This document shows, piece by piece, positions 9,129 through 36,616 of a DNA stretch of 64,000 nt. The stretch comes from an uncultured Alistipes sp. (GTDB lineage: Bacteria; Bacteroidota; Bacteroidia; Bacteroidales; Rikenellaceae): NCBI GenBank assembly GCA_944321955.1, contig CALUNG010000006.1, forward strand, positions 49,748 to 113,747. Reading direction: 5' to 3'. The notes below the pieces were generated by a model. The model worked only from the letters and a program-made list of their open reading frames with translations, had not been told where the DNA came from and did no database searches. Position numbers and translations under genes: made by a program. Within the stretch, counting starts at the first letter, position 1; each line of letters starts with the position of its first letter.

Positions 9129-10046
9129 ATGAAAGCAAGCGTCAAAGGCTCCATCTGCGGCATAATCGCGGCCGTCAGCTACGGAACCAACCCTCTGGGG
9201 GCATTGTTCCTGTACGAACAGGGCATAAACGCAAACTCCGTACTATTCTACCGGTTCACGCTTGCCGTGGCTATCCTCGGCATCATAATGCTCGCTACCG
9301 GAAAGCCGTTCCGCATAAACCGTCGGCAGGCAGCCGTAACCATGATACTCGGCATACTGTTCGGTATCTCATCCATGAGCCTCTTCACCAGCTTCTACCA
9401 CATGGATGCGGGCATAGCCTGTACGCTTCTGTTCGTATACCCCATCATGGTGGCCGTAATCATGGCTCTGTTCTTTCACGAAAAGATCACCGCCGCCACA
9501 GTGCTCTCGATCGTACTTGCATTATCAGGAATAGGACTTCTGTACAAAGGGCCCGGAAACGTCTCGCTCAGCGGTGCCGGTGTGGCACTGGTCATGCTGT
9601 CGGCACTTTCGTACGCCCTGTACATAGTACTGGTAAACCGTTCATCGCTCGGCATGCCGGCCGTCAAGCTATCGTTCTACGTAATGATATTCTGTGTGCT
9701 TACCATCACCGCATGTTCGCTGTTCGACGATAAAGGAAAGTTGCAGATGCTGACTACTCCGTCGATGTGGGGATTCGCACTGATGCTGGCATGCGTACCG
9801 ACGGTCATATCGCTGATAATGATGACCCTGTCGGTAAAATACATCGGCTCGACACCCACGGCAATCATGGGAGCGCTCGAACCGTTGACGGCCGTAATAA
9901 TAGGCATTACCGTCTTCGGCGAGACATTCACCGCACAACTGGCAACAGGCATAGTGTTAATACTCGCCGCCGTGATCACGATCATCAGCGCCCGGTCGAT
10001 ACACTGGCGCTGGCATCCGCACCTGCGTCACTGGAAATTCAAATAA
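9129..10046 (+). CDS. EamA/DMT-family transporter
   Basis: This 305-residue protein has about ten transmembrane segments in two EamA repeats: GIIAAVSYGTNPLGALFLY near the start and LVMLSALSYALYIVLVNR in the middle, with the GALEPLTAVIIGITVFGE motif near the C-terminus. It is an inner-membrane exporter of unknown substrate. The gene starts 7 bp after the FlK-like thioesterase and shares its promoter. The ATG at 9129 is used; upstream in-frame codons overlap the thioesterase. Confidence 0.9.
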   Translation: MKASVKGSICGIIAAVSYGTNPLGALFLYEQGINANSVLFYRFTLAVAILGIIMLATGKPFRINRRQAAVTMILGILFGISSMSLFTSFYHMDAGIACTLLFVYPIMVAVIMALFFHEKITAATVLSIVLALSGIGLLYKGPGNVSLSGAGVALVMLSALSYALYIVLVNRSSLGMPAVKLSFYVMIFCVLTITACSLFDDKGKLQMLTTPSMWGFALMLACVPTVISLIMMTLSVKYIGSTPTAIMGALEPLTAVIIGITVFGETFTAQLATGIVLILAAVITIISARSIHWRWHPHLRHWKFK

Positions 10047-10082
10047 AAAACCGGAGGCTTTCTTGTAAAGTCTCCGGTTTTT
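10046..10082. terminator. Bidirectional terminator
   Basis: AAAAACCGGAG pairs with CTCCGGTTTTT, with further pairing of GCTTT with AAAGT across a 5-nt loop. It lies between the EamA gene and the convergent esterase gene. Confidence 0.85.
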
Positions 10083-10099
10083 ATCATGCCGTTAGTGCA

Positions 10100-10963
10100 C
10101 TACAACTCGTCGAGCCAGCGCAGCAACAGATTCTGCCACTCCTTCTGATACGAGAACCTGTCATAGTTTCCCCAACCGTGGCCGCCCGAAGGGAATACGT
10201 ACATCGAGGCCTTGACTCCGTAATATTTCAGGGCTGCATAGTACATAGCCGCACCGGCAGCCGGCACCGTACGGTCGTCATCGCTGAGCAGGAGTATGGT
10301 CGGCGGCGTCTTCTCGGTAACGCACTTATCCATGGAGTAAGCTTCGCTCTCGCTCTCGGTACGGTCACGGCCCAGCAGGTTGTTGAACGTTCCTATATGA
10401 GTCGTATAGTTGTTGGCCGTAATGACGGGATAAAAGAGTATGGAAAAGTCGGGTTTATCCTCATCAGCCGCGAAGTTGGATGTATAGGCCGCAAGATGTC
10501 CGCCGGCCGAGAATCCCATGATGCCGACCTTGTGCGGGTCCACACCATATTTCGCGGCATCGCGACGGATAATGCGCAACGCTTCGATCGCGTCCTCCAG
10601 AGGCACCTCCTTGTGTCCGTTCGGAAGACGGTACTTGAGAACGAATCCGGCAATACCGTTCTTGGCAAGCCACTGCGCCATGAGGAAGCCCTCCTGATCC
10701 ATCGACAACTGGCCGTAACCGCCGCCCGGACAGATGACAACGGCCTGTCCCGTGGCCTTTGCCTTGTCGGCATTGTAGACGAATAACTCCGCCGAGGTCG
10801 TATTCATCAGGCGGTACGGATTCTGATTGTACTCCTCGCCCGTCAGTTCGTTCGAATGCGGAGCCGTGGAGTTGTCCCAAATCTTTATCGAGCTGTCCTG
10901 CTCGTACTGTGCATAGCCTGTCATTGTCATGAGCGCCATTGCCAAAGTCAGTAGTTTTTTCAT
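10100..10963 (-). CDS. Secreted alpha/beta hydrolase (acetyl-esterase/BD-FAE type)
   Basis: This 287-residue protein begins with a signal peptide (about 1-19, ending GYAQ). The fold shows the oxyanion loop CPGGGYG (79-85), the nucleophile elbow GFSAGG with Ser152, the acid in LLLSDDDRTVP (about Asp230) and the histidine in PSGGHGWG (His262). This is the bifunctional feruloyl/acetyl-xylan esterase pattern, so it probably removes acyl groups from plant or mucin glycans in the periplasm or outside the cell. It starts 18 bp after leuS and is probably read from the leuS promoter, which is an odd pairing. Confidence 0.9.
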   Translation of the reverse strand: MKKLLTLAMALMTMTGYAQYEQDSSIKIWDNSTAPHSNELTGEEYNQNPYRLMNTTSAELFVYNADKAKATGQAVVICPGGGYGQLSMDQEGFLMAQWLAKNGIAGFVLKYRLPNGHKEVPLEDAIEALRIIRRDAAKYGVDPHKVGIMGFSAGGHLAAYTSNFAADEDKPDFSILFYPVITANNYTTHIGTFNNLLGRDRTESESEAYSMDKCVTEKTPPTILLLSDDDRTVPAAGAAMYYAALKYYGVKASMYVFPSGGHGWGNYDRFSYQKEWQNLLLRWLDEL

Positions 10964-10981
10964 ATCGTTTTCAAGGTTGTT

Positions 10982-13720
10982 TTACTTTACAAGGTTGATG
11001 ATCTTGCCCGGAACGACGATGATCTTCTTGGGTGCGGCTCCCTCGAGCCACTTCTGCGCCTCGGGCGTAGTCACTATATCGGCAGAAATGTCCGCAACCG
11101 TAGCAGACAACGGATACTCCTTCTTGAAGCGCACCTTGCCGTTGACGGAAACCGGATACTCGAACGCACTCTCGACAAGATACTTTTCGTCATACTCGGG
11201 ATAACGCGCATCACATACCGTAGTGTTGTGACCGGCCAACGACCACAGCTCCTCGGCTATGTGCGGAGCGAACGGAGATATCAAAACCGTAAGAGGCTCC
11301 AGAATATCACGCTTGTGGCACTCTCCGAGCTCGTTGAGGCATATCATGAACGCAGCTACCGAGGTGTTGAACGAAAAGTTCTCGATATCTTCGCGAACCT
11401 TCTTTATGGTCTTGTGCAGAGTCTTCAGTTCCTTGTCGGTAGCCTTGTCGTCGTTCAACGCGAAGTTACCCTCACGGTCGAAGAACAGACGCCAGAACTT
11501 GCGCAGGAATTTGTGAACGCCGTCTATGCCGTTGGTATCCCACGGCTTGGACTGTTCGAGAGGTCCGAGGAACATCTCGTACATGCGCAACGTGTCGGCT
11601 CCGTACTGGTCGACGATATAATCGGGATTGACCACGTTGAACATCGACTTCGACATCTTCTCGATAGCCCATCCGCAGGTGTATTTGCCATCCTCGAGAA
11701 TGAACTCCGCATCGGCGAACTCGGGGCGCCATGCGCGGAATGCCTCGAGGTCGAGCTGGTCGTTGCGAACGATATTCACGTCGACGTGAATCTCCTGTGT
11801 CTCGTAATTTTTCTTCAGGCCGGCCGACACGAATGTGTTGGTACCCACGACACGGTAAACGAAATTGGAACGGCCCTGGATCATTCCCTGATTCACCAGT
11901 TTCTTGAACGGTTCGGGTTCGCAGACGTATCCGAGGTCATAGAGGAACATGTTCCAGAAACGCGAATACATGAGGTGTCCCGTAGCGTGCTCGATGCCTC
12001 CGACATAGAGGTCGACGTTGCGCCAGTACTCGTCCGCCTCACGGCCGACAAGAGCCTTGTCGTTGTGGGGATCCATATATCGCAGGTAGTATGCCGACGA
12101 TCCGGCGAATCCGGGCATGGTCGATGTCTCGTACCGCCATCCCTTGACACGCGCCAAAGGCGGTTCGCCCTGCTCCGTAGGACCGAAATTCTCGATCGGC
12201 GGCAACTCCAGAGGAAGGTCCTTCTCATCGAGCGGACGAGCGATGTCGTTCTCGTAATATATCGGGAACGGCTCGCCCCAGTAACGCTGGCGCGAGAATA
12301 TGGCATCACGCAGGCGGTAGTTCACGATACGGCGGCCGATGCCGCGGTTTTCAACCTCTTCGAACATGAACTTTATCGCCTCCTTGACATCCATGCCGTC
12401 GAGGAACTCCGAATTTATCATTTTGCCCTCCTTGGCGTCGTACGAAGAGACGGAGAGATCGCCACCGGCAACCACGGGAACGATGTCGAGACCGAAATGA
12501 CGGGCAAAGGCGTAGTCGCGCGAATCGTGTGCCGGCACGGCCATGATGGCACCGGTACCGTATCCGGCCAGCACGTAATCCGAAACGTAAATCGGTATGC
12601 GTTTGCCGCTGAAGGGATTTATGGCATACGAACCTGTAGCCACACCGCTCACGCGTTTGGTCTCGGCCATACGTTCACGCTCCGAACGTTTCTTGGTCTG
12701 TTCGACATACTCCTCGACGGCAGCACGATTCTCTTCAGTGGTCAGTTCCGAAAGCCACTCGTGCTCCGGTGCGATGACCATGAACGTCACGCCGTATATC
12801 GTATCGGGACGCGTCGTGAAGATCTCCAGCTTGCGGTCGCTGCCGACAATATCGAAGAACATCTGTGCTCCCACCGAACGGCCGATCCAGTTGCGCTGTA
12901 TCTCCTTGAGCGAATCGCTCCACTCGAGGCTCTCCAGGCCGTCAAGCATGCGCTGCGCATACGCCGTAACACGAAGCAGCCACTGCTTCATGCGTTTCTG
13001 TACCACGGGGTAACCGCCGCGTACCGAAAGGCCGTCCTTAACCTCGTCGTTGGCCAGAACGGTACCGAGCTTCGGACACCAGTTGACCATGGTGTCGGCA
13101 CGGAAAGCTATGCGGTAATTCTGCAGCGTCTGCTCCTTCTGCACCTCGGACATCGCACGCCAGTCGTCGGCCGTGAACGTCATCTCTGTAGTACAGGCAG
13201 CATCGACATCGGCCGTACCGCTCTTTTCGAAGGCTGCCACCAGCTTCTCGATCGGCTCGGCCTTCTGTACACGACGATCGTAATAGTGCGAGAACATCTT
13301 GAGGAACGCCCACTGCGTCCATTTATAGTACGACGGATCGCACGTACGCACCTCGCGGTCCCAGTCAAAACAGAATCCTATCTTGTCCAGCTGCTCGCGG
13401 TAACGTGCTATGTTGCGTTCAGTCGTGACGGCCGGATGCTGCCCGGTCTGTATGGCATACTGCTCGGCAGGAAGTCCGAATGCGTCGTATCCCATCGGAT
13501 GAAGCACGTTGAATCCGCACGAACGCTTGTAACGCGAATAGATGTCGGATGCTATGTATCCGAGCGGATGGCCTACATGCAGACCGGCCCCCGACGGGTA
13601 TGGGAACATGTCCAGAACGTAGTACTTGGGACGCGACGGATCGATCTCGACGTGATAGGTCTTGTCCTCCTTCCAGCGGCGCTGCCACTTGGCCTCTATC
13701 TCCTTGAAATTGTATTCCAT
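10982..13720 (-). CDS. leuS: Leucyl-tRNA synthetase
   Basis: This 912-residue class I aminoacyl-tRNA synthetase charges tRNA-Leu. The HIGH signature is [10 protein letters not shown] near the N-terminus. The CP1 editing domain lies in the middle ([18 protein letters not shown]-type segment around [15 protein letters not shown]), KMSKS is intact in EKMSKSMFN, and the anticodon-binding domain is C-terminal. The ATG at 13720 ([12 protein letters not shown]) is the family start. A TAATTTTG promoter element lies about 36 bp upstream. Confidence 0.99.
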
Positions 13721-27979: not shown

Positions 27980-28001
27980 GAAATATTTGGCGAAATATTT
28001 G
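27980..28001 (+). repeat. Tandem direct repeat over the -33 region of the nuclease locus promoter
   Basis: GAAATATTTG occurs at 27980-27989 and again at 27992-28001, 12 bp apart, with the second copy containing the -33 TTTG. The spacing of about one helical turn suits a regulator dimer on one face. Confidence 0.6.
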
Positions 28002-28028
28002 TCGTTTACAAAATAACGCTTAAATTTG
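27998..28028 (+). promoter_or_regulatory. Promoter of the extracellular nuclease locus
   Basis: TTTG (27998-28001), 19 bp, TAAATTTG (28021-28028) is an exact Bacteroidetes promoter. The predicted start near 28033 gives an AT-rich leader of about 80 nt. Confidence 0.85.
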
Positions 28029-28113
28029 TACTAATTAATTGGAAGCATACGACACTGGATTATTTAAAAATATAATTAAATCCGACGTAAACACATTAAA
28101 CCTTTTAGTTTTT

Positions 28114-29877
28114 ATGAAGATGAAAAATTTATTCAGGACACTTCTGCTGGCAGCCGTAGTGCTGACGGCAGGAACATTGGCCTCGTGTAAAGACAAGGAG
28201 GAGAACACCAATCGTTATGAGGGTATTCCGACGATTTCGGTATCTCCCGCCGATCTGGCCGTAACGCTTACCGGCGGCACGACCGAGGCGGTGACCATCA
28301 CCACCGAGGCAGAATGGACAGTATCGATTCCGAGCGACGCATCGGACATCACTGTTAGCAAGACCAGCGGCTTCGGCAACGGAAGCATTACCTTCACCGT
28401 TCCCGCACACGCCGAGCGTAATGTTGCCGTAACCGTTACCGCTACCGGTTACTACAACAACCAGCCTCTGACCAAGAGCGCCACCATCAATATCGCACAG
28501 AACGAGAGTGGTGAAAGTCTGGAAGGCACCATCGCAAGCATAACCGAGGCAGGAAGCTACACGATCAACAACGCCGTAGTAGTAGGTACCTACGACAGCG
28601 GTTTCGTTATGACCGACCGCAGCAAGCTCTACTTCCTCGTCTACATGTTTGACAAGACCTCGAACCCGAATCCGCAGGTTCCGGCAGTAGGTTCGGTTGT
28701 AAATGTAAGCGGCGAAGTTGTAGATCACAACGGCATGCTGCAGTTCAACTACACGGCTACCGTAACTCCGACCGGCGAGACCCAGCAGGTTGACCTCGGC
28801 GAGCCCGCAGCATACGGTTATGAGGAGATGAAGGCCTACAAGTCGAATCCGTCGTACGTATATGTTAAATACACCGGTACGCTGAGCGTAAACAAAACCT
28901 ACTACAATGTTCTGTTTGCTGAAGGTACCGATACCCAGGGTTCGATTTCGTATCCGAATCCCGAACTCAACGTGGCAAGCTACAACGGCAAGGTTATCGA
29001 CGTAACAGGCTTCCTCGTTGGTACGTCCGGAAGTTCGTATGTAAACACCTGCTGCACGGCGATATCTGAAAACACCTCTACTCCGTCGATCAGCGCAACC
29101 GCTCCCTCAACATTTGCGGCTGCAGGCGAGACTCTGAACGTTACCTACACCACGCAGAACCTTGGTTCGAACCAGATATTCGCCGAGGTAACCGGCGAAG
29201 GTTTCAGCGCAGGAACTCCTGCCAACGGTACAGTAGCAGTTACGGCAGCAGCAAATAATGAGTCTGTTGCCAAGAGCGGAACTCTTACTCTGTATATTGC
29301 GGCATCGGAAGGAGGTGAACATCTGGCTGAAGCTGTAGTAGCTCTGAAGCAGGCTCCTTATACTGAAGCCGGTGCAAGCTACCAGCCCGTTACTTCTGCT
29401 CCCGCAGACTGGTCTGGCCAATATGTAGTTGGCTATGTAGATGGCGAAACATGCTATATTATTGATGCGAAAAAGAACGGTGATAGTGCAACTCAGTCAT
29501 ATTTCACATATAAGCTATTAACATCGTCCGAATTCGATGGCACGAACATCGCATACAATGAAGCATATAATACCATAACTCTTGCAAAAGTAAGTGGTAG
29601 CGACTACTACTCAATGCAGTATGGTAGCATGTATGTAGGTTGGACTTCATCAACAGGCAATAGCTGTGAATTCACGACGACCGCACCAACTTCTTCTACC
29701 ACCGATTATCTCTGGACGGTAGAGTTCAATGAGGACAATCTTATATACATGACAGTTGTATCAATGAAAGATGATGCTAAACCGCGCAGATTGCAGTTTA
29801 ACTCTAATAATAATCAGGAACGTTTTGCAATATACGCAAACTCGCAAAAGAATCTCACGTTGTATACGCTGAAATAA
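28114..29877 (+). CDS. Surface lipoprotein with BACON and OB-like domains
   Basis: This 587-residue protein has a lipobox, LASC, at Cys25. It is followed by KDKEEN, an acidic stretch like the Bacteroidetes signal for surface display. Domains in order: a BACON-type beta sandwich (about 38-130, TEAEWTVSIPS); an OB-like region (about 135-235, EGTIASITEAGSYTINNAVV then VGSVVNVSGEVVDHNGMLQF); a second beta domain (about 320-415); and a C-terminal domain ending RRLQFNSNN and LTLYTLK, which I associate with Bacteroidetes proteins linked to nucleases. No catalytic motif is seen, so it is probably a binding protein. It is the first gene of the nuclease locus. A strong hairpin follows it, so it may be made in excess over the later genes. 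Third-position base usage is more relaxed in its last 150 codons. Confidence 0.85.
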   Translation: MKMKNLFRTLLLAAVVLTAGTLASCKDKEENTNRYEGIPTISVSPADLAVTLTGGTTEAVTITTEAEWTVSIPSDASDITVSKTSGFGNGSITFTVPAHAERNVAVTVTATGYYNNQPLTKSATINIAQNESGESLEGTIASITEAGSYTINNAVVVGTYDSGFVMTDRSKLYFLVYMFDKTSNPNPQVPAVGSVVNVSGEVVDHNGMLQFNYTATVTPTGETQQVDLGEPAAYGYEEMKAYKSNPSYVYVKYTGTLSVNKTYYNVLFAEGTDTQGSISYPNPELNVASYNGKVIDVTGFLVGTSGSSYVNTCCTAISENTSTPSISATAPSTFAAAGETLNVTYTTQNLGSNQIFAEVTGEGFSAGTPANGTVAVTAAANNESVAKSGTLTLYIAASEGGEHLAEAVVALKQAPYTEAGASYQPVTSAPADWSGQYVVGYVDGETCYIIDAKKNGDSATQSYFTYKLLTSSEFDGTNIAYNEAYNTITLAKVSGSDYYSMQYGSMYVGWTSSTGNSCEFTTTAPTSSTTDYLWTVEFNEDNLIYMTVVSMKDDAKPRRLQFNSNNNQERFAIYANSQKNLTLYTLK

Positions 29878-29902
29878 CAAGCGTATAAGAATCTGATAAA
29901 AT

Positions 29903-29949
29903 CCGGACTCTTGACGGAGTTTACACAATCCGTCAAGAGTCGGGTTTTT
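29903..29949 (+). terminator. Hairpin between the first two genes of the nuclease locus
   Basis: CCgGACTCTTGACGGA pairs with TCCGTCAAGAGTCgGG around a 10-nt loop and is followed by five T. No good -7 element is visible before the next gene (only TATAATTG at 30009-30016), so partial read-through is likely. Confidence 0.85.
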
Positions 29950-30025
29950 CTAAAGAGATATACCATAAAGAATCCCCAAAGCGTTTAAGGATAAAATACT
30001 TTATTGTATATAATTGAAAGCTTTG

Positions 30026-31243
30026 ATGAATATCCGCATACTCAAAGAACTAAATCTCAGATTCATACTTCTGTCGGTAGCCGTGCTGGCCCTATTTACG
30101 GCCTGCAGCGACAAGGAAGAAGCATGGTCGCCTTTCAAGTCACAGGCTTCGCTCGTACAGTCTGCCATAGGATATGACGAGACGACTGTTACCGGCAAGA
30201 CATCAGGGTCGCCTACCCTGAACTGGACTGCCGTGATTACGGAGGGAAGCGAATGGTGCTCATTCAGCCAATCGGCAAAACAGGTTTCGAACAGCGGCAA
30301 GGTGGGTTCTAACTTTACCGTATATGTCGATACCAACGATACAACCTCGTCGCGTCGGGGCGAGATTCAAATAAAATTCACCGACAACTACTCCGTAACG
30401 CTCAATTTCACGCAATACGGTAACGGCGACAACGCCGAATTCAATCGGGCCTGGGGAGAACAGCCCGAATATCGCGAAGATGCCGATTTCGTCTACAAGA
30501 CATATTATACGACGCTTTACGGCTCGACCAGAAAGGTGCGCAGCTACTCGATTTGCTACGACACCGAGAAACTCGTATCGCAATGGGTTGCATATCCGTT
30601 GCACACAATATACATGTCCCCGTCGGTAAGCAGAACAAATGCATGGTCCTTCGACAATACTCCGAATCCGACAATACCGCAAAGCCAGCAACAGGATATC
30701 GTTAACGGAGCTTACGGAAACGGAGACGCACGCGGTCACATGCTGCCGTCGGCTTCGCGTTACAGCACCACCGCAACAAACGAACAGACGTTCTATGCGA
30801 CCAACATGATGCCGCAGGCGTACGATTTCAACGGAGGATCCTGGGCATCGCTCGAAGATCAGGTGCGTACGATTGCCCGAACCACATCGGACACGCTGTT
30901 CGTTGTAGTTGGCACATTGTACGAAAACTCCAGAATAATAAACAAGAACGGACGCAAAATAACGAGACCGTCGCACTGCTTCAAGCTTTTGCTGAAGACC
31001 AGAAGCGGCAATACGCACAAAAGCATCTCGGAGATCACGTCGGCAGACGACCTCGTATCCATAGGATTCCTCTACGAAAACGACAACGACAGCGAGTACA
31101 CTACATTCTCTGAAGCCGCCGTTTCGGTCGCCGAGATAGAGAGACGTTCCGGTTTTACGTTCTTCCGCAATATCGACCCGTCGATAGCCGACGAGGTCAA
31201 GTCCCAAAAAAATCTGGACGATTGGGGAAACGCTTTCAAATGA
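30026..31243 (+). CDS. Lipoprotein DNA/RNA non-specific endonuclease
   Basis: This 405-residue lipoprotein has its lipobox FTAC at Cys27, followed by acidic SDKEE, which suggests surface display. A BACON-type domain covers about 35-135, and the NUC1/NucA-type nuclease domain covers about 165-400. The active-site signature is DARGHMLPSASR, the D-x-RGH motif with the general-base histidine. The metal-binding asparagine follows in TNMMPQAYDFNGGSWASLED, as in Serratia nuclease relatives. It should cut DNA and RNA outside the cell. The ATG at 30026 was preferred over a TTG 12 bp upstream. It is followed by an endonuclease/exonuclease/phosphatase gene after 40 bp. Confidence 0.93.
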   Translation: MNIRILKELNLRFILLSVAVLALFTACSDKEEAWSPFKSQASLVQSAIGYDETTVTGKTSGSPTLNWTAVITEGSEWCSFSQSAKQVSNSGKVGSNFTVYVDTNDTTSSRRGEIQIKFTDNYSVTLNFTQYGNGDNAEFNRAWGEQPEYREDADFVYKTYYTTLYGSTRKVRSYSICYDTEKLVSQWVAYPLHTIYMSPSVSRTNAWSFDNTPNPTIPQSQQQDIVNGAYGNGDARGHMLPSASRYSTTATNEQTFYATNMMPQAYDFNGGSWASLEDQVRTIARTTSDTLFVVVGTLYENSRIINKNGRKITRPSHCFKLLLKTRSGNTHKSISEITSADDLVSIGFLYENDNDSEYTTFSEAAVSVAEIERRSGFTFFRNIDPSIADEVKSQKNLDDWGNAFK

Positions 31244-31283
31244 CAAGGATAAACAGAACCATAAAATCTAAAATTACGCACTT

Positions 31284-32321
31284 ATGAAGAAGCTGATTTT
31301 CACGACTCTGTTTGCGGCTTTGATGCTGGCCTGCTTTGCCCAGAAGCCGCGCATGGTCGTCTTCTACAATCTCGAAAATCTTTTCGACACGATCAACGAT
31401 CCCAACGTCAACGACGAGGAGTTCCTGCCGGACGGACCGCGCAAATGGAACACCTACAAGTACAATACGAAACTCTCGAACATCGAGCGCGTATTGTTCG
31501 ACATAGCCTTGATAAACAAGGAGTATCCGGCTGTCGTCGGCGTTTCGGAGATCGAAAACCGCAAGGTGCTCGAGGACCTCATCGCACAGCCGAAACTCGC
31601 TCCGGGCAAATTCGGCATCGTACACTACGATTCGCCCGATGCCCGCGGCGTGGACGTTGCGTTCCTCTACCGTCCCGACATCTTCAAGCTCGAGGGCAGC
31701 AAGGCCATAAAGTTCAACATGCCGGGCATGCCCGACTTCCGCACACGCGATTTCGTCACGATGTGGGGAACCATCGACAACGAACCTTTCTTCTTCCTTG
31801 TTTCGCACTGGCCGTCGCGCCTCGGCGGAAAGGATGCTTCGTCGCCCAAACGCGAGGCCGCAGCTGCGCAGTGCCGTCACATCGCCGACTCGGTACGCAA
31901 GGCCAATCCCGCAACCAAAGTCGTTATCATGGGCGACCTCAATGACGACGCTACGGACAAGAGTATCGTCGAGGTACTCGGAGCCAAGGCCAAGATCAAG
32001 AATCTCGAACCGGGCGACATGTACAACCCATACATCGACGTTCTGAAGGCAGGATACGGTACACTGGCTTACCAGGATGCATGGAACCTCTTCGACAACA
32101 TCATCATATCGGACAACCTCGCAACGGGGTCGACCGGCAAGCTCAAGATACAGAAAGGCAAGGGCTGGAAATATTACGGCAACATATTCTCGCGCCCGTA
32201 CATGATACAGAAAGAGGGCCAGTACAAGGGATATCCGTTGCGTACGTTCGTAGGCACGAACTTCCAGGGCGGATTCTCCGACCACTTCCCGGTATATATT
32301 TACATAGGCACTGACGAATAA
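31284..32321 (+). CDS. Secreted endonuclease/exonuclease/phosphatase family protein
   Basis: This 345-residue protein has a signal peptide (about 1-19, ending CFAQ). The EEP (DNase I-like) fold follows with every expected active-site block: FYNLENLFDT, VSEIEN (metal Glu), RGVDVAFLYRPD, VSHWPSR (His), MGDLNDD (Asp/Asn) and GGFSDHFPVY (C-terminal Asp-His). It hydrolyses phosphodiesters or phosphomonoesters, probably oligonucleotides or nucleotides made by the upstream nuclease, in the periplasm or at the surface. It ends 13 bp before the TonB-dependent receptor. Confidence 0.94.
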   Translation: MKKLIFTTLFAALMLACFAQKPRMVVFYNLENLFDTINDPNVNDEEFLPDGPRKWNTYKYNTKLSNIERVLFDIALINKEYPAVVGVSEIENRKVLEDLIAQPKLAPGKFGIVHYDSPDARGVDVAFLYRPDIFKLEGSKAIKFNMPGMPDFRTRDFVTMWGTIDNEPFFFLVSHWPSRLGGKDASSPKREAAAAQCRHIADSVRKANPATKVVIMGDLNDDATDKSIVEVLGAKAKIKNLEPGDMYNPYIDVLKAGYGTLAYQDAWNLFDNIIISDNLATGSTGKLKIQKGKGWKYYGNIFSRPYMIQKEGQYKGYPLRTFVGTNFQGGFSDHFPVYIYIGTDE

Positions 32322-32334
32322 AAACCATATTTGT

Positions 32335-35202
32335 ATGAAACTCAAATCTCTACTCATTCTGACGTTTACCATGCTGACGATGGCCGTATGGGCTCAGGAC
32401 GGAGGCATCAAGGGTAAGTTGGTTACACGTGACGGACGGCAGGCCGTAAGCAACGCCACTGTTACGATCGAGTCTACGGGACAGACCGTCGTTACGGACA
32501 ATGAAGGAAACTTCACGCTCGGCAACCTGCCTGCCGGTGACTACAAAGTCACCTTCACGGCTCCCGAATTCGAGCAGACCGAGGTAGTAGTTCGCGTAGA
32601 CAAGAATGTCAAGAACATCGACCAGGTGACCATTGCACCGACTCCCGTTCAGGAGGTTCTCGACGATTCGATCTTCGCCGAATACGACACCGAGACATCC
32701 GATTCCGACGCTCAGGCAATGCCCTCGTCGCTGTCGGCCTCGAAAGACATCTTCAACAACATCGCATCGTACCGATTCAGCGAAATGCGCTTCAGAACCC
32801 GCGGTTACGACACGCAGTACACCGATGTCTATCTCAACGGCATACGCTTCAACGACGCCCTGACCGGATACGGACCGTGGTCGTTGTGGAGCGGCATGAA
32901 TGACGCCACCAGAAACCAGGAAAACACCTCTGGCCTCGACGTCACGCAGTACGGCATCGGCGGCATCGGCGGTACGACCAACATCAACGCCCGTGCATCG
33001 CAGATGCGAAAGGGTTTCCGTGCAAGCGTATCGAACGGCAACTCGATGTATCGTTTCCGTGCAATCGTATCATACGCTTCGGGTGCTCTCGACAACGGTT
33101 GGTCCTATGCATTCTCGGTATCGACCCGTCAGGGTGGAAACGGATACGTGGACGGCGTATACTACAACTCGTACGGATACTTCGCTGCCGTCGAGAAGCT
33201 CTTCGGGACCAAGCATCGTCTGTCGCTGATGGTTCTCGGCACACCGCAGGAGCGCGGAGCACAGCAGGCTTCGACGCAGGAGGCTTACGATCTCTTTGGC
33301 AACAACTACTACAACCCCAACGTTGGTTACCAGGACGGCAAATTGCGTAACACACGTGTACGCAAGACCCACGAGCCGATCGTGATGCTCAACTACTACT
33401 ACGACATCTCGGAGAAGACCCGTCTGACGGCAGCTACCTCGGTACGTTTCGGCAAGAACGGTTACTCGGCCCTCACATGGAAGGACGGCGCCGACCCGCG
33501 CCCCGACTACTACCGCTATCTGCCTTCGTACTATACGAGCCAGATCACGGGTGACATTCCGGGAATTTTCGACGCAACCAGCAGTCAGGAGATCGAATCC
33601 TACCTGCAGGCAGCAGCCGACGCCGCATCCGTATGGAAACAGACCATGGGCCGCATCGACTTCGACAACATGATCCGCACCAACCAGCGTGAGGATCCGA
33701 ATGTGACCTACGCAAACGGTTTCCGCTCGAACTACATCATCGAGGAGCGCCATACCGACCAGATCGACTACAACTTCGTGGCCGACATAGCACACCAATT
33801 CAACAAGAACCATCGCCTGACAGCCGGTATCAAGGCCCGTATCAACCGTACGGAGTACTATGACCAGGTGAAGGATCTTCTGGGCGGCGACTATTGGGTC
33901 GACATCGACAAGTTCGCCGAGCGCGACAAGGGAAGCGACATCATCGCATACCAGAACGATGTGGACTACTACAATGCCAACGGTCATGCCCGCGTGGTCA
34001 AGGAGGGTGACAAGTTCTCGTATGACTACTACGCTCACATCCGCCAGGCTCAGGTATGGGCTCTCTACGGACTCAATATCGGCGGTTTCGCGATGGAGAT
34101 AGGCGGTGAGATCGGATATTCGGGCATGTGGCGTCAGGGCTTGATGCGCAAGGGTCTCTTCGCCGAGGGCAACGAATCGTTCGGCGACTCGAAGCACCTC
34201 GACTATCTGACATACAAGGTAAAGGGTAACTTTGCATACCGCTTCTCGGGTGCGCACTCGCTCGTAGCAAATGTTGCGATGATACAGGATGCTCCGACTT
34301 TCCAGACGGCATTCGTTTCGCCCCGTACCCGTAATCAGGTGAACCCCGGACTGAAGGCCAATACGATATTCAGCGCAGAATTGACCTACAACCTCAATCT
34401 GCCCTACATCAAGGCCCGTCTCTCGGGATACTACACCAAGATGAACGATCTGGCAAAGGTCATCTCGTTCTATGACGATACGCAGTCGTCGTACACCAAC
34501 TTCGCAATGACCGGCATCGACAAACGTTACTATGGCGTTGAACTGGGTCTGGAAGTTCCCATCTGGAACGGTCTTTCGCTCAGAAGCGCCATAAGCTGGG
34601 GACAGTATCAGTACACATCGAATCCCAACTTCGTACAGATCGTCGACAACAGCGCCAGCGTTAAGCTTATCGATAAGGTATACTGGAAAGATTTCTACGT
34701 TGAAAGTACTCCGCAGTTCGCAGCCAACGTCGGACTCAACTTCCGCGGTCCGAAGAACTGGTTCGCATCGGTTGACTTCAACTACTACAAGGATCTCTAC
34801 CTCTCGATGAACCCCGCATACCGTACAAACAATGCGGTAAAGAACTATGTAAGCGTACTGAACAACCCCAATGCCGACACAATGGCACAGGTATGGGCAA
34901 TGCAGAATATCGAGACTATCCGCGCACAGGAGAACCTCGGATCGGCATACACGCTCAGCGCAAGCATCGGCAAGAACTGGTACATCCACCGCATCTATAC
35001 GCTCGGATTCAGCCTCGAGGTGAAGAATATCCTCAACAACCAGGATATCCGCACCGGTGGTTACGAGCAGATGCGTATGCGCAAGACCCGTGGTCTCGAC
35101 GTAGGTGAGAACCCTGCAAAGCAATTCTATTCGCGTTTCGATTCGAAGTACTTCTACCTGCTCGGAACGACGTATTACCTCAATGTATACTTCCGTTTCT
35201 AA
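32335..35202 (+). CDS. TonB-dependent receptor of the nuclease locus
   Basis: This 955-residue outer-membrane protein has a signal peptide (1-20, ending WAQ) and a carboxypeptidase-regulatory-like beta domain (about 25-100, GKLVTRDGRQAVSNATVTIES). A plug follows with RFRTRGYDTQYTDVYLNGI (about 150-170) and YGIGGIGGTTNINAR, then a 22-strand-type barrel ending in a C-terminal aromatic, YYLNVYFRF. The long acidic stretch between the regulatory domain and the plug (about 110-135) is unusual. No SusD homologue is beside it; a DUF5689 lipoprotein follows after 15 bp. I infer energised uptake of nucleic acid fragments or nucleotides from its neighbours, not from the receptor itself. Confidence 0.93.
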   Translation: MKLKSLLILTFTMLTMAVWAQDGGIKGKLVTRDGRQAVSNATVTIESTGQTVVTDNEGNFTLGNLPAGDYKVTFTAPEFEQTEVVVRVDKNVKNIDQVTIAPTPVQEVLDDSIFAEYDTETSDSDAQAMPSSLSASKDIFNNIASYRFSEMRFRTRGYDTQYTDVYLNGIRFNDALTGYGPWSLWSGMNDATRNQENTSGLDVTQYGIGGIGGTTNINARASQMRKGFRASVSNGNSMYRFRAIVSYASGALDNGWSYAFSVSTRQGGNGYVDGVYYNSYGYFAAVEKLFGTKHRLSLMVLGTPQERGAQQASTQEAYDLFGNNYYNPNVGYQDGKLRNTRVRKTHEPIVMLNYYYDISEKTRLTAATSVRFGKNGYSALTWKDGADPRPDYYRYLPSYYTSQITGDIPGIFDATSSQEIESYLQAAADAASVWKQTMGRIDFDNMIRTNQREDPNVTYANGFRSNYIIEERHTDQIDYNFVADIAHQFNKNHRLTAGIKARINRTEYYDQVKDLLGGDYWVDIDKFAERDKGSDIIAYQNDVDYYNANGHARVVKEGDKFSYDYYAHIRQAQVWALYGLNIGGFAMEIGGEIGYSGMWRQGLMRKGLFAEGNESFGDSKHLDYLTYKVKGNFAYRFSGAHSLVANVAMIQDAPTFQTAFVSPRTRNQVNPGLKANTIFSAELTYNLNLPYIKARLSGYYTKMNDLAKVISFYDDTQSSYTNFAMTGIDKRYYGVELGLEVPIWNGLSLRSAISWGQYQYTSNPNFVQIVDNSASVKLIDKVYWKDFYVESTPQFAANVGLNFRGPKNWFASVDFNYYKDLYLSMNPAYRTNNAVKNYVSVLNNPNADTMAQVWAMQNIETIRAQENLGSAYTLSASIGKNWYIHRIYTLGFSLEVKNILNNQDIRTGGYEQMRMRKTRGLDVGENPAKQFYSRFDSKYFYLLGTTYYLNVYFRF

Positions 35203-35217
35203 TGTCGAACCGCTAAA

Positions 35218-36558
35218 ATGAAAAAGATTATGAAACTGTTCAGAATATTTTTAATCACTGTTGTCGGTTCGCTTGCGGTGAGCTGCTACAACGATTTCGA
35301 CATGCCTGCACCGGCTCCGGTCTACAACGACGAAACGATGGAGGCAATGGGCATGACGCATATTTCGATTTACGACCTGAAAAAGAAGTTCGGCGAAATA
35401 AACGGCACGGGCAGCACCAACGTTGCAGACGGTCTTGAGAAGACCATGTACAAGCGTTTCGTTCTGGACGAAGCCGAGTGCACCGAATGGGAGAAGCAGA
35501 CCAACCGCTATATCGTAGGCAACTACTACATCAAGGGCAAGGTCATCTCCAACGACGAGCAGGGCAACATCTACAAGTCGCTCTACATATATGACGGTAC
35601 CGCCGCCATAGAACTGAAGCTCACGAACGGACTCTACCTCGACTACTTCTGCAATCTCGACAAGATAGGTACCGGCGAAATGGCTACTCAGTGGGTATAC
35701 GTGAAGCTGCACGGCCTCTACATGGGCAACTTCCGCATGATGCTCTCCATCGGCGACATCCCGACCGAGAGCCTCAACTCGTACGGACGCCCGAAATTCT
35801 ACCCTAACTCCAACATCAACAGCCCGATCAAGGTACGCGACCACGTGTTCGCAGGCGAAAAGGATGTGTTGACCGAAGGCGTATTGAACAGTGACGGTTC
35901 GAACAAGAATGCCTATGACGTGCTGGTAATCAACGAGAGCAACTGCGACCAGGTAACATACGACAACAGCGACGGAGGTGTCAACTACTTCGGTCGTCTG
36001 TTCCGTTTCAAGGGCGTAAAGATGGCATATCGTGGCGTAACGAACCAGAATGGCGAGAAAGCCGACCAGCTCGATACGGGCGACTACCCGTCGTGGATCT
36101 GCACCAGCGGAACCATCACCGGCTATCCCGTCGAGTATCTGTCGCTGCCTTGGGGCAAACTTGCATACAGCCAGGATAACGTATCGCTCTACGGACAGAT
36201 GGTCGTAGGATTCGGCGACAAGGGGAAGACTGCACTGAAGAAATCGGAAGCCGGAGTATATATAATCCGTACCAGCGGCTATGCCCGTTATGCAGGCAAG
36301 ATCGTTCCCCGCGACGGTATTGATGGTGATATTCTCGGCATATATTCGATCTATTCGAAGATGGCAAACGGATACGAAGCCTATCAGGTAACACCCTGCC
36401 GTTTCGACGATATCTTCCCGACATACTATGAGAACATGACGGAGAGCGAAGCAGCCGAAATGGAGGAATGGGCTGCGAGCGAAAGCGATGGCGGTAAGAT
36501 ACCCGACGACGCATTCTATCTGCCAACTACCATCAACGAAGATGATATGGACGAATAA
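35218..36558 (+). CDS. DUF5689 lipoprotein
   Basis: This 446-residue lipoprotein has its lipobox AVSC at Cys23. The DUF5689 domain (about 45-260) has the typical ISIYDLKKKF start and the YIVGNYYIKGKVISNDEQGNIYKS OB-like strand set, which resembles nucleic-acid-binding OB folds. The C-terminal half (about 260-430) repeats a similar TITGYPVEYL pattern. The tail is acidic. The function is unknown; in Bacteroidetes it commonly follows a TonB-dependent receptor. Here it probably acts as the surface binding partner of the receptor, in place of SusD. Confidence 0.88.
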   Translation: MKKIMKLFRIFLITVVGSLAVSCYNDFDMPAPAPVYNDETMEAMGMTHISIYDLKKKFGEINGTGSTNVADGLEKTMYKRFVLDEAECTEWEKQTNRYIVGNYYIKGKVISNDEQGNIYKSLYIYDGTAAIELKLTNGLYLDYFCNLDKIGTGEMATQWVYVKLHGLYMGNFRMMLSIGDIPTESLNSYGRPKFYPNSNINSPIKVRDHVFAGEKDVLTEGVLNSDGSNKNAYDVLVINESNCDQVTYDNSDGGVNYFGRLFRFKGVKMAYRGVTNQNGEKADQLDTGDYPSWICTSGTITGYPVEYLSLPWGKLAYSQDNVSLYGQMVVGFGDKGKTALKKSEAGVYIIRTSGYARYAGKIVPRDGIDGDILGIYSIYSKMANGYEAYQVTPCRFDDIFPTYYENMTESEAAEMEEWAASESDGGKIPDDAFYLPTTINEDDMDE

Positions 36559-36585: not shown

Positions 36586-36616
36586 GCCTCGCTTGCACAA
36601 GCGAGGCCCTTTTTTT
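36586..36616 (+). terminator. Terminator of the nuclease locus
   Basis: GCCTCGCTT pairs with AAGCGAGGC around a 4-nt loop and is followed by CCC and a T run. Confidence 0.88.

Follow-up and report, generated by a model that had tools for sequence, protein, structure and literature searches.

Organization of the Locus

The window analyzed here is a stretch of 64,000 nucleotides from an uncultured Alistipes sp. (contig CALUNG010000006.1, positions 49,748 to 113,747). It contains five genes, g1–g5, that an earlier note on this DNA had read as a single unit for the capture and import of nucleic acid: a BACON-like lipoprotein (g1), a NUC1 nuclease (g2), an EEP-fold enzyme (g3), a receptor (g4) and a DUF5689 lipoprotein (g5). 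All five reading frames were confirmed in their places on the + strand. Relatives were surveyed in 61 genomes of varying completeness, 37 of the window's genus, including its own, and 24 of other families. The features of the locus are as follows:

28114..29877, + strand: g1, variable surface lipoprotein, BACON-like (sub-threshold BACON match; relatives in 19/61 genomes)
29903..29944, + strand: terminator-like hairpin between g1 and g2, then a T run (−27 kcal/mol, z −5.2)
30026..31243, + strand: g2, NUC1 (DNA/RNA non-specific endonuclease) lipoprotein, DARGH site intact (PF01223, 5.4e-38)
31284..32321, + strand: g3, EEP-fold phosphodiesterase with a non-lipoprotein signal, probably periplasmic (PF19580, 2.3e-118)
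32335..35202, + strand: g4, TonB-dependent receptor with a CarboxypepD_reg domain (Pfam, model, tree)
35218..36558, + strand: g5, DUF5689 lipoprotein with predicted OB-like folds (PF18942, 3.8e-21)
36586..36607, + strand: terminator-like hairpin past g5, then a T run (consensus match)

The intergenic gaps are 40 bp between g2 and g3, 13 bp between g3 and g4, and 15 bp between g4 and g5. The 136-bp gap between g1 and g2 holds the stronger hairpin, whose energy was not equaled in any of 200 shuffles; it falls outside the consensus terminator scan, which has a loop limit of 8. The hairpin past g5 is a consensus match, of a kind no commoner in this region than in shuffled sequence. Judging from the gaps and the hairpin, g2–g5 look like a single operon and g1 like a separate neighbor, which probably does not share their transcript. 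The five-gene unit was therefore given up as far as g1 is concerned, on account of the hairpin before g2 and of the variable, mostly partial relatives of g1. The acidic residues previously pointed out behind the lipid cysteines of g1 (CKDKEE) and g2 (CSDKEE) are present, and g5 has them as well (CYNDFD). An anti-phage system was also considered and rejected, since PADLOC gave no match for g2–g5.

The NUC1 Nuclease and the EEP Enzyme

The g2 gene, which starts at a TTG at 30014 or, more likely, at the ATG at 30026 and ends at 31243, matched PF01223 (5.4e-38) and, weakly, BACON. Its active site reads GDARGHMLPSASR, in which the D-x-RGH motif is present as DARGH, as expected for the intact NUC1 lipoprotein described before. 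Among the sequences of solved structures, g2 matched the Anabaena nuclease 2o3b (7.8e-22). The fold of g2 is one that known entry nucleases share; EndA of pneumococcus is presumably also a member of the same Pfam family. Both EndA and NucM of Moraxella catarrhalis (PMC6384898) are beta-beta-alpha metal nucleases with a DRGH motif. Compared to these, g2 is different in being a lipoprotein with a BACON-like region, and its role in uptake is a candidate one.

The g3 product matched PF19580 (2.3e-118), and its catalytic blocks were invariant across eight relatives, which bears out its assignment as an EEP-fold phosphodiesterase with all active-site blocks. When g3 and g4 were each compared by sequence with solved structures, no match appeared at the limits used, and an EEP profile had none either. 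A strict lipobox was found in none of the 127 linked EEPs. This count is suggestive rather than proof, because many lipoproteins of Bacteroidota fail this criterion: only 5/26 NUC1 and 7/27 DUF5689 proteins of the window's genus have a strict lipobox. Nevertheless, it makes the periplasm the probable location of the EEP enzyme, which would then work on material already imported. The previously proposed succession of binding, cutting, trimming and import is only partly right: nucleic-acid import is retained, but the role of the EEP as a trimmer on the outside is doubtful. Elsewhere (L056 in genome G020, 9227-11507), NUC1 and EEP genes stand side by side without this receptor or a DUF5689 gene.

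The Receptor and the DUF5689 Lipoprotein

Pfam found only CarboxypepD_reg-like domains in g4. Since the barrel was called by neither Pfam nor NCBIfam, and NCBIfam gave no receptor family, the structure was modeled with AlphaFold, yielding a predicted local distance difference test (pLDDT) score of 83.4. All 50 of the Foldseek matches listed for this model were TonB-dependent transporters (best 2.3e-28), in agreement with the original assignment of g4 as a TonB-dependent receptor. A receptor profile searched against solved structures matched mostly CarboxypepD-like domains and, weakly, OprC.

The g5 protein matched PF18942 (3.8e-21), as expected for a DUF5689 lipoprotein, and its lipid cysteine, Cys23, was invariant in 31/31 relatives. 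The model of g5 had a pLDDT of 87.4, and the 50 fold matches listed were all titled MCM/CMG/replisome, CST or single-strand-binding, which are proteins that share OB folds. The model thus weakly resembles OB-fold DNA-binding proteins. By sequence, g5 had only weak, unrelated matches among solved structures. DUF5689 and NUC1 were found fused in single proteins of ≈1000 residues, both in the window's own genome (G000, L235:3098-6103) and in another (G002, L236:1364-4444), and these fusions tie DUF5689 to nucleic acid.

A SusC/SusD pair was ruled out, since there was no SusD match in g5 (Pfam) and no SusC/RagA family match in g4 (Pfam, NCBIfam). The locus is similar to such pairs in having a TonB-dependent barrel with CarboxypepD_reg and a surface lipoprotein encoded downstream, but here the lipoprotein is DUF5689. 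No SusD family was present among the Pfam matches of the five proteins; in the earlier note, DUF5689 was placed in the SusD position.

Conservation and Linkage

The receptor was found in 28 of the 37 genomes of the genus; 27 of the matches were long, and the remaining one was a fragment at the end of a contig (G009). Linkage was counted for receptors above 500 bits only, which excluded fragments and split frames: the G009 fragment, G229, where the receptor is in two pieces, and probably L210. Within 3.5 kb of the 27 intact genus receptors, DUF5689 was present in 27/27, EEP in 26/27 and NUC1 in 26/27 cases, with EEP and DUF5689 on the strand of the receptor; the lone exception stops at a contig edge. 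Of the five families, those of g2–g5 thus form a conserved unit in the genus; g1 is variable. At 11 other loci from the same order, EEP was near the receptor in nine and DUF5689 in ten. Of a further 102 loci, 92 had EEP (divergent and upstream in 90 of them), 99 had DUF5689 and 90 had both; none had NUC1. These loci are not independent, because many come from a set of 64 that, by title, are mostly Chryseobacterium, Epilithonimonas and Elizabethkingia.

The receptor profile matched 31/149 genomes of the window's class at 1e-60, 108/120 genomes in the family of G161 and 30/119 in the order of that family (both at 1e-100), and 141/148 genomes in the family of G081 at 1e-150. The receptor is thus near-universal in these two families and patchy elsewhere.

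In the receptor tree, the receptors of the window, of Riemerella and of the remaining loci grouped in a single clade (84/90, not starred), from which six further receptors were separate. The EEPs of the locus likewise formed one family, with four unlinked EEPs apart from it at 99/96. Six more EEPs that were scored as unlinked fell inside this family (L050, L056, L153, L204, L112 and L210); the receptor was at a contig end in L050, lost in L056, split in L153 and 6 kb away in L204, and the EEP in L112 is a second copy. Linkage of g3, g4 and g5 across families and orders, together with the single EEP family, makes it extremely improbable that the genes are chance neighbors and not a unit. At most, this could apply to g1, with its hairpin and variable relatives.

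A second receptor locus (L079, G000:C6:1331-7015) is found on the window's contig, outside the window. It encodes a long-branched relative of g4, placed nearest the window's side in the receptor tree (92/99), and two small DUF5689 lipoproteins, with an Obg-like GTPase gene (identified by eye) between. Similar loci (L080, L082) come from members of the genus without a g2–g5-type locus.

Correspondence to Riemerella Transformation Genes

In the literature searched, which left most subscription journals and preprints outside, the term DUF5689 was found only in PMC8459023. Riemerella anatipestifer carries RA0C_RS04915 and RA0C_RS04920 next to each other, and markerless deletion of either one reduced transformation from 5.4e-5 to below detection (PMC8459023). 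Four proteins are described there as widespread in Bacteroidetes, yet Flavobacteriaceae are given as the only group with the receptor. RS04910 is absent from the mutants tabulated in that paper, which leaves the strand-degrading enzyme unidentified.

In L156, from a genome in a single contig, recA is followed after four genes by ComEC, and two genes further on come EEP, receptor and DUF5689 (recA and ComEC identified by eye). This order agrees with the locus tags 04870, 04895, 04915 and 04920 of PMC8459023, which advance in steps of five, and by gene order RA0C_RS04910 would therefore be the EEP gene. The same order is kept in R. anatipestifer locus L161 from the gene behind recA onward, with ComEC, EEP and DUF5689 recognized by Pfam. 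Compared with the Riemerella trio, g3, g4 and g5 of the window matched at 3e-74, 9e-110 and 0.001, respectively. The counterparts of g4 and g5 are thus needed for DNA transformation in Riemerella (PMC8459023), which supports the earlier proposal of nucleic-acid capture and import. Two TonB genes also matter for R. anatipestifer transformation (PMC8383284).

The window and Riemerella loci share a CarboxypepD_reg receptor of one clade, a DUF5689 gene directly downstream and an adjoining EEP gene. The adjacency of the EEP as a Riemerella-type feature is added here and is not named in PMC8459023. The EEP gene is divergent in Riemerella and co-directional in the window, where a NUC1 lipoprotein is added and g5 has no DUF5017 match. 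Furthermore, ComEC is not near the window locus, but on contig C11 of the same genome. Both in Riemerella and in a relative, large Cas9-like proteins (identified by eye) are encoded near the trio (L157:3594-7031, L161:15664-19866, L160:13894-18090), possibly by chance.

ComEC and a Candidate Strand-Degrading Nuclease

The window's genome contains both ComEC and DprA. In eight ComECs (one of R. anatipestifer, one of G000 and six from further genomes), the beta-lactamase-like domain PF00753 was not found, whereas the E. coli YcaI control had this domain at 2e-23. All eight had the channel domain and a match in the OB region, the latter below cut-off in G000, G007 and G014. Past the channel domain, 12 residues remain in G000 and 98 in Riemerella; in L225, L230 and L231, ≈200 residues without a Pfam match follow, which could hide a diverged domain. 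A ComEC lacking the nuclease domain calls for a separate strand-degrading nuclease, for which the EEP enzyme, kept beside the receptor, is a candidate. There is precedent for such ComECs: pneumococcus, whose ComEC is unable to break down the second strand, uses EndA for this instead, and Helicobacter has neither (PMC12455585). No link of the DUF5689 receptor locus to EEP, NUC1 or a short ComEC was found in the literature searched.

ComEC frames are ≈420–550 residues long in the window's genus (L227, L228, L229), versus ≈690–770 in many genomes of the same order. By eye, ComEC length showed no pattern with the presence of the trio in the 61 genomes.

Proposed Mechanism and Alternatives

We consider it rather probable that g2–g5 constitute a module for importing DNA across the outer membrane, of the type that transformation in Riemerella genetically requires, DNA being the likeliest cargo of the nucleic-acid import. 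For this organism, we infer DNA as the cargo and the order of the steps, as well as where the EEP and NUC1 enzymes are located and what they do. In this mechanism, the surface DUF5689 lipoprotein g5 would bind DNA through its OB folds and hand it on to g4, and the receptor would admit it to the periplasm with energy from TonB; outside the cell, the surface NUC1 lipoprotein g2 would nick or shorten DNA. In the periplasm, the EEP enzyme g3 would degrade one strand or whole fragments, after which one strand may pass through ComEC, leading to transformation, or the nucleotides may serve as food.

Several observations weigh against such a module. Identity to the Riemerella proteins is low (27% over 977 columns for g4), and g5 aligned over 79 residues only. 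None of the 50 fold matches listed for g5 reached E ≤ 0.001. The trio is patchy, with no receptor match at 1e-60 in 118/149 genomes of the class. F. johnsoniae has homologues, yet was not transformed under the conditions tried (PMC8459023), and the effect of one of the TonB mutants on transformation may act via iron (PMC8383284). ComEC (60/61 genomes) and DprA (57/61) are too widespread to prove competence, and G038, a genome that is 99% complete, has the trio and no ComEC match. General linkage between the trio and ComEC was rejected, since ComEC lay within the fetched stretch of only 3/140 receptor loci (L161, L156 and L158, two of one genus and one named Riemerella). A NUC1 on the cell surface could degrade incoming DNA before it transforms the cell. 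Lastly, the second receptor locus may serve transformation, leaving the g2–g5 locus for feeding.

Feeding might indeed be the sole function: NUC1 would cut extracellular DNA or RNA, g4 and g5 would import the products, and the EEP would finish them for phosphate, nitrogen or nucleosides, with no transformation involved. The two nucleases in the operon, several additional NUC1 proteins in G000 (four matches), the DUF5689-NUC1 fusions and the G038 trio without ComEC are all consistent with this, and transformation of Riemerella columbina rises under phosphate or peptone restriction, where the authors discuss DNA as food. Nothing relevant on nucleic-acid nutrition loci was found in the literature searched. 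However, the Riemerella deletions lose transformation (PMC8459023), and removal of phosphate lowers transformation of R. anatipestifer (PMC8383284). We therefore regard nutrition alone as unlikely, while transformation and nutrition may be served by one device.

Alternatively, the cargo could be another phosphodiester or a different ligand altogether, and transformation in Riemerella could have been lost indirectly. EEP-fold enzymes include non-nucleases, and sequence searches gave no solved relative for either g3 or g5. However, deletion of the DUF5689 gene and of the receptor gene each separately abolishes transformation (PMC8459023), and both the NUC1 gene in the operon and the DUF5689-NUC1 fusions point to nucleic acid, making a different cargo quite improbable.

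The locus is thus most likely a pilus-free DNA-import device, a variant of a DNA-uptake system about which little is known, and the EEP is a candidate enzyme for the missing step. The Riemerella genetics now back the nucleic-acid cargo that had been guessed before, and the link to transformation goes beyond the earlier note. More tentatively, EEP, receptor and DUF5689 might be a machine with which Bacteroidota widely take up DNA independently of pili, uncultured lineages like that of the window included. The EEP would then be the missing entry nuclease, producing single strands for a ComEC that has no nuclease domain of its own, and NUC1 a second, lineage-specific one; we hold this to be possible, but doubtful. 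In Bacteroidota, neither the passage of DNA through the outer membrane nor the enzyme that produces the single strand is settled. If this wider proposal is true, a single trio would answer both questions, and would serve as a marker of DNA-uptake capacity for uncultured lineages.

The Variable Lipoprotein g1

The neighboring g1 gene has its ATG at 28114 and ends at 29877, and was analyzed from 28111. It matched no Pfam family at E ≤ 0.01; at E ≤ 1, the only match was BACON at 14.8 bits, under the cut-off of 25, and a DUF5689 profile built here did not match g1. Of the BACON and OB-like domains ascribed to this surface lipoprotein, the former is thus sub-threshold and the latter was not borne out. 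Matches to g1 at E ≤ 0.001, mostly partial, were found in 19 of the 61 genomes, and one relative (L050) has both BACON (34.4 bits) and DUF5689 (47.1 bits).
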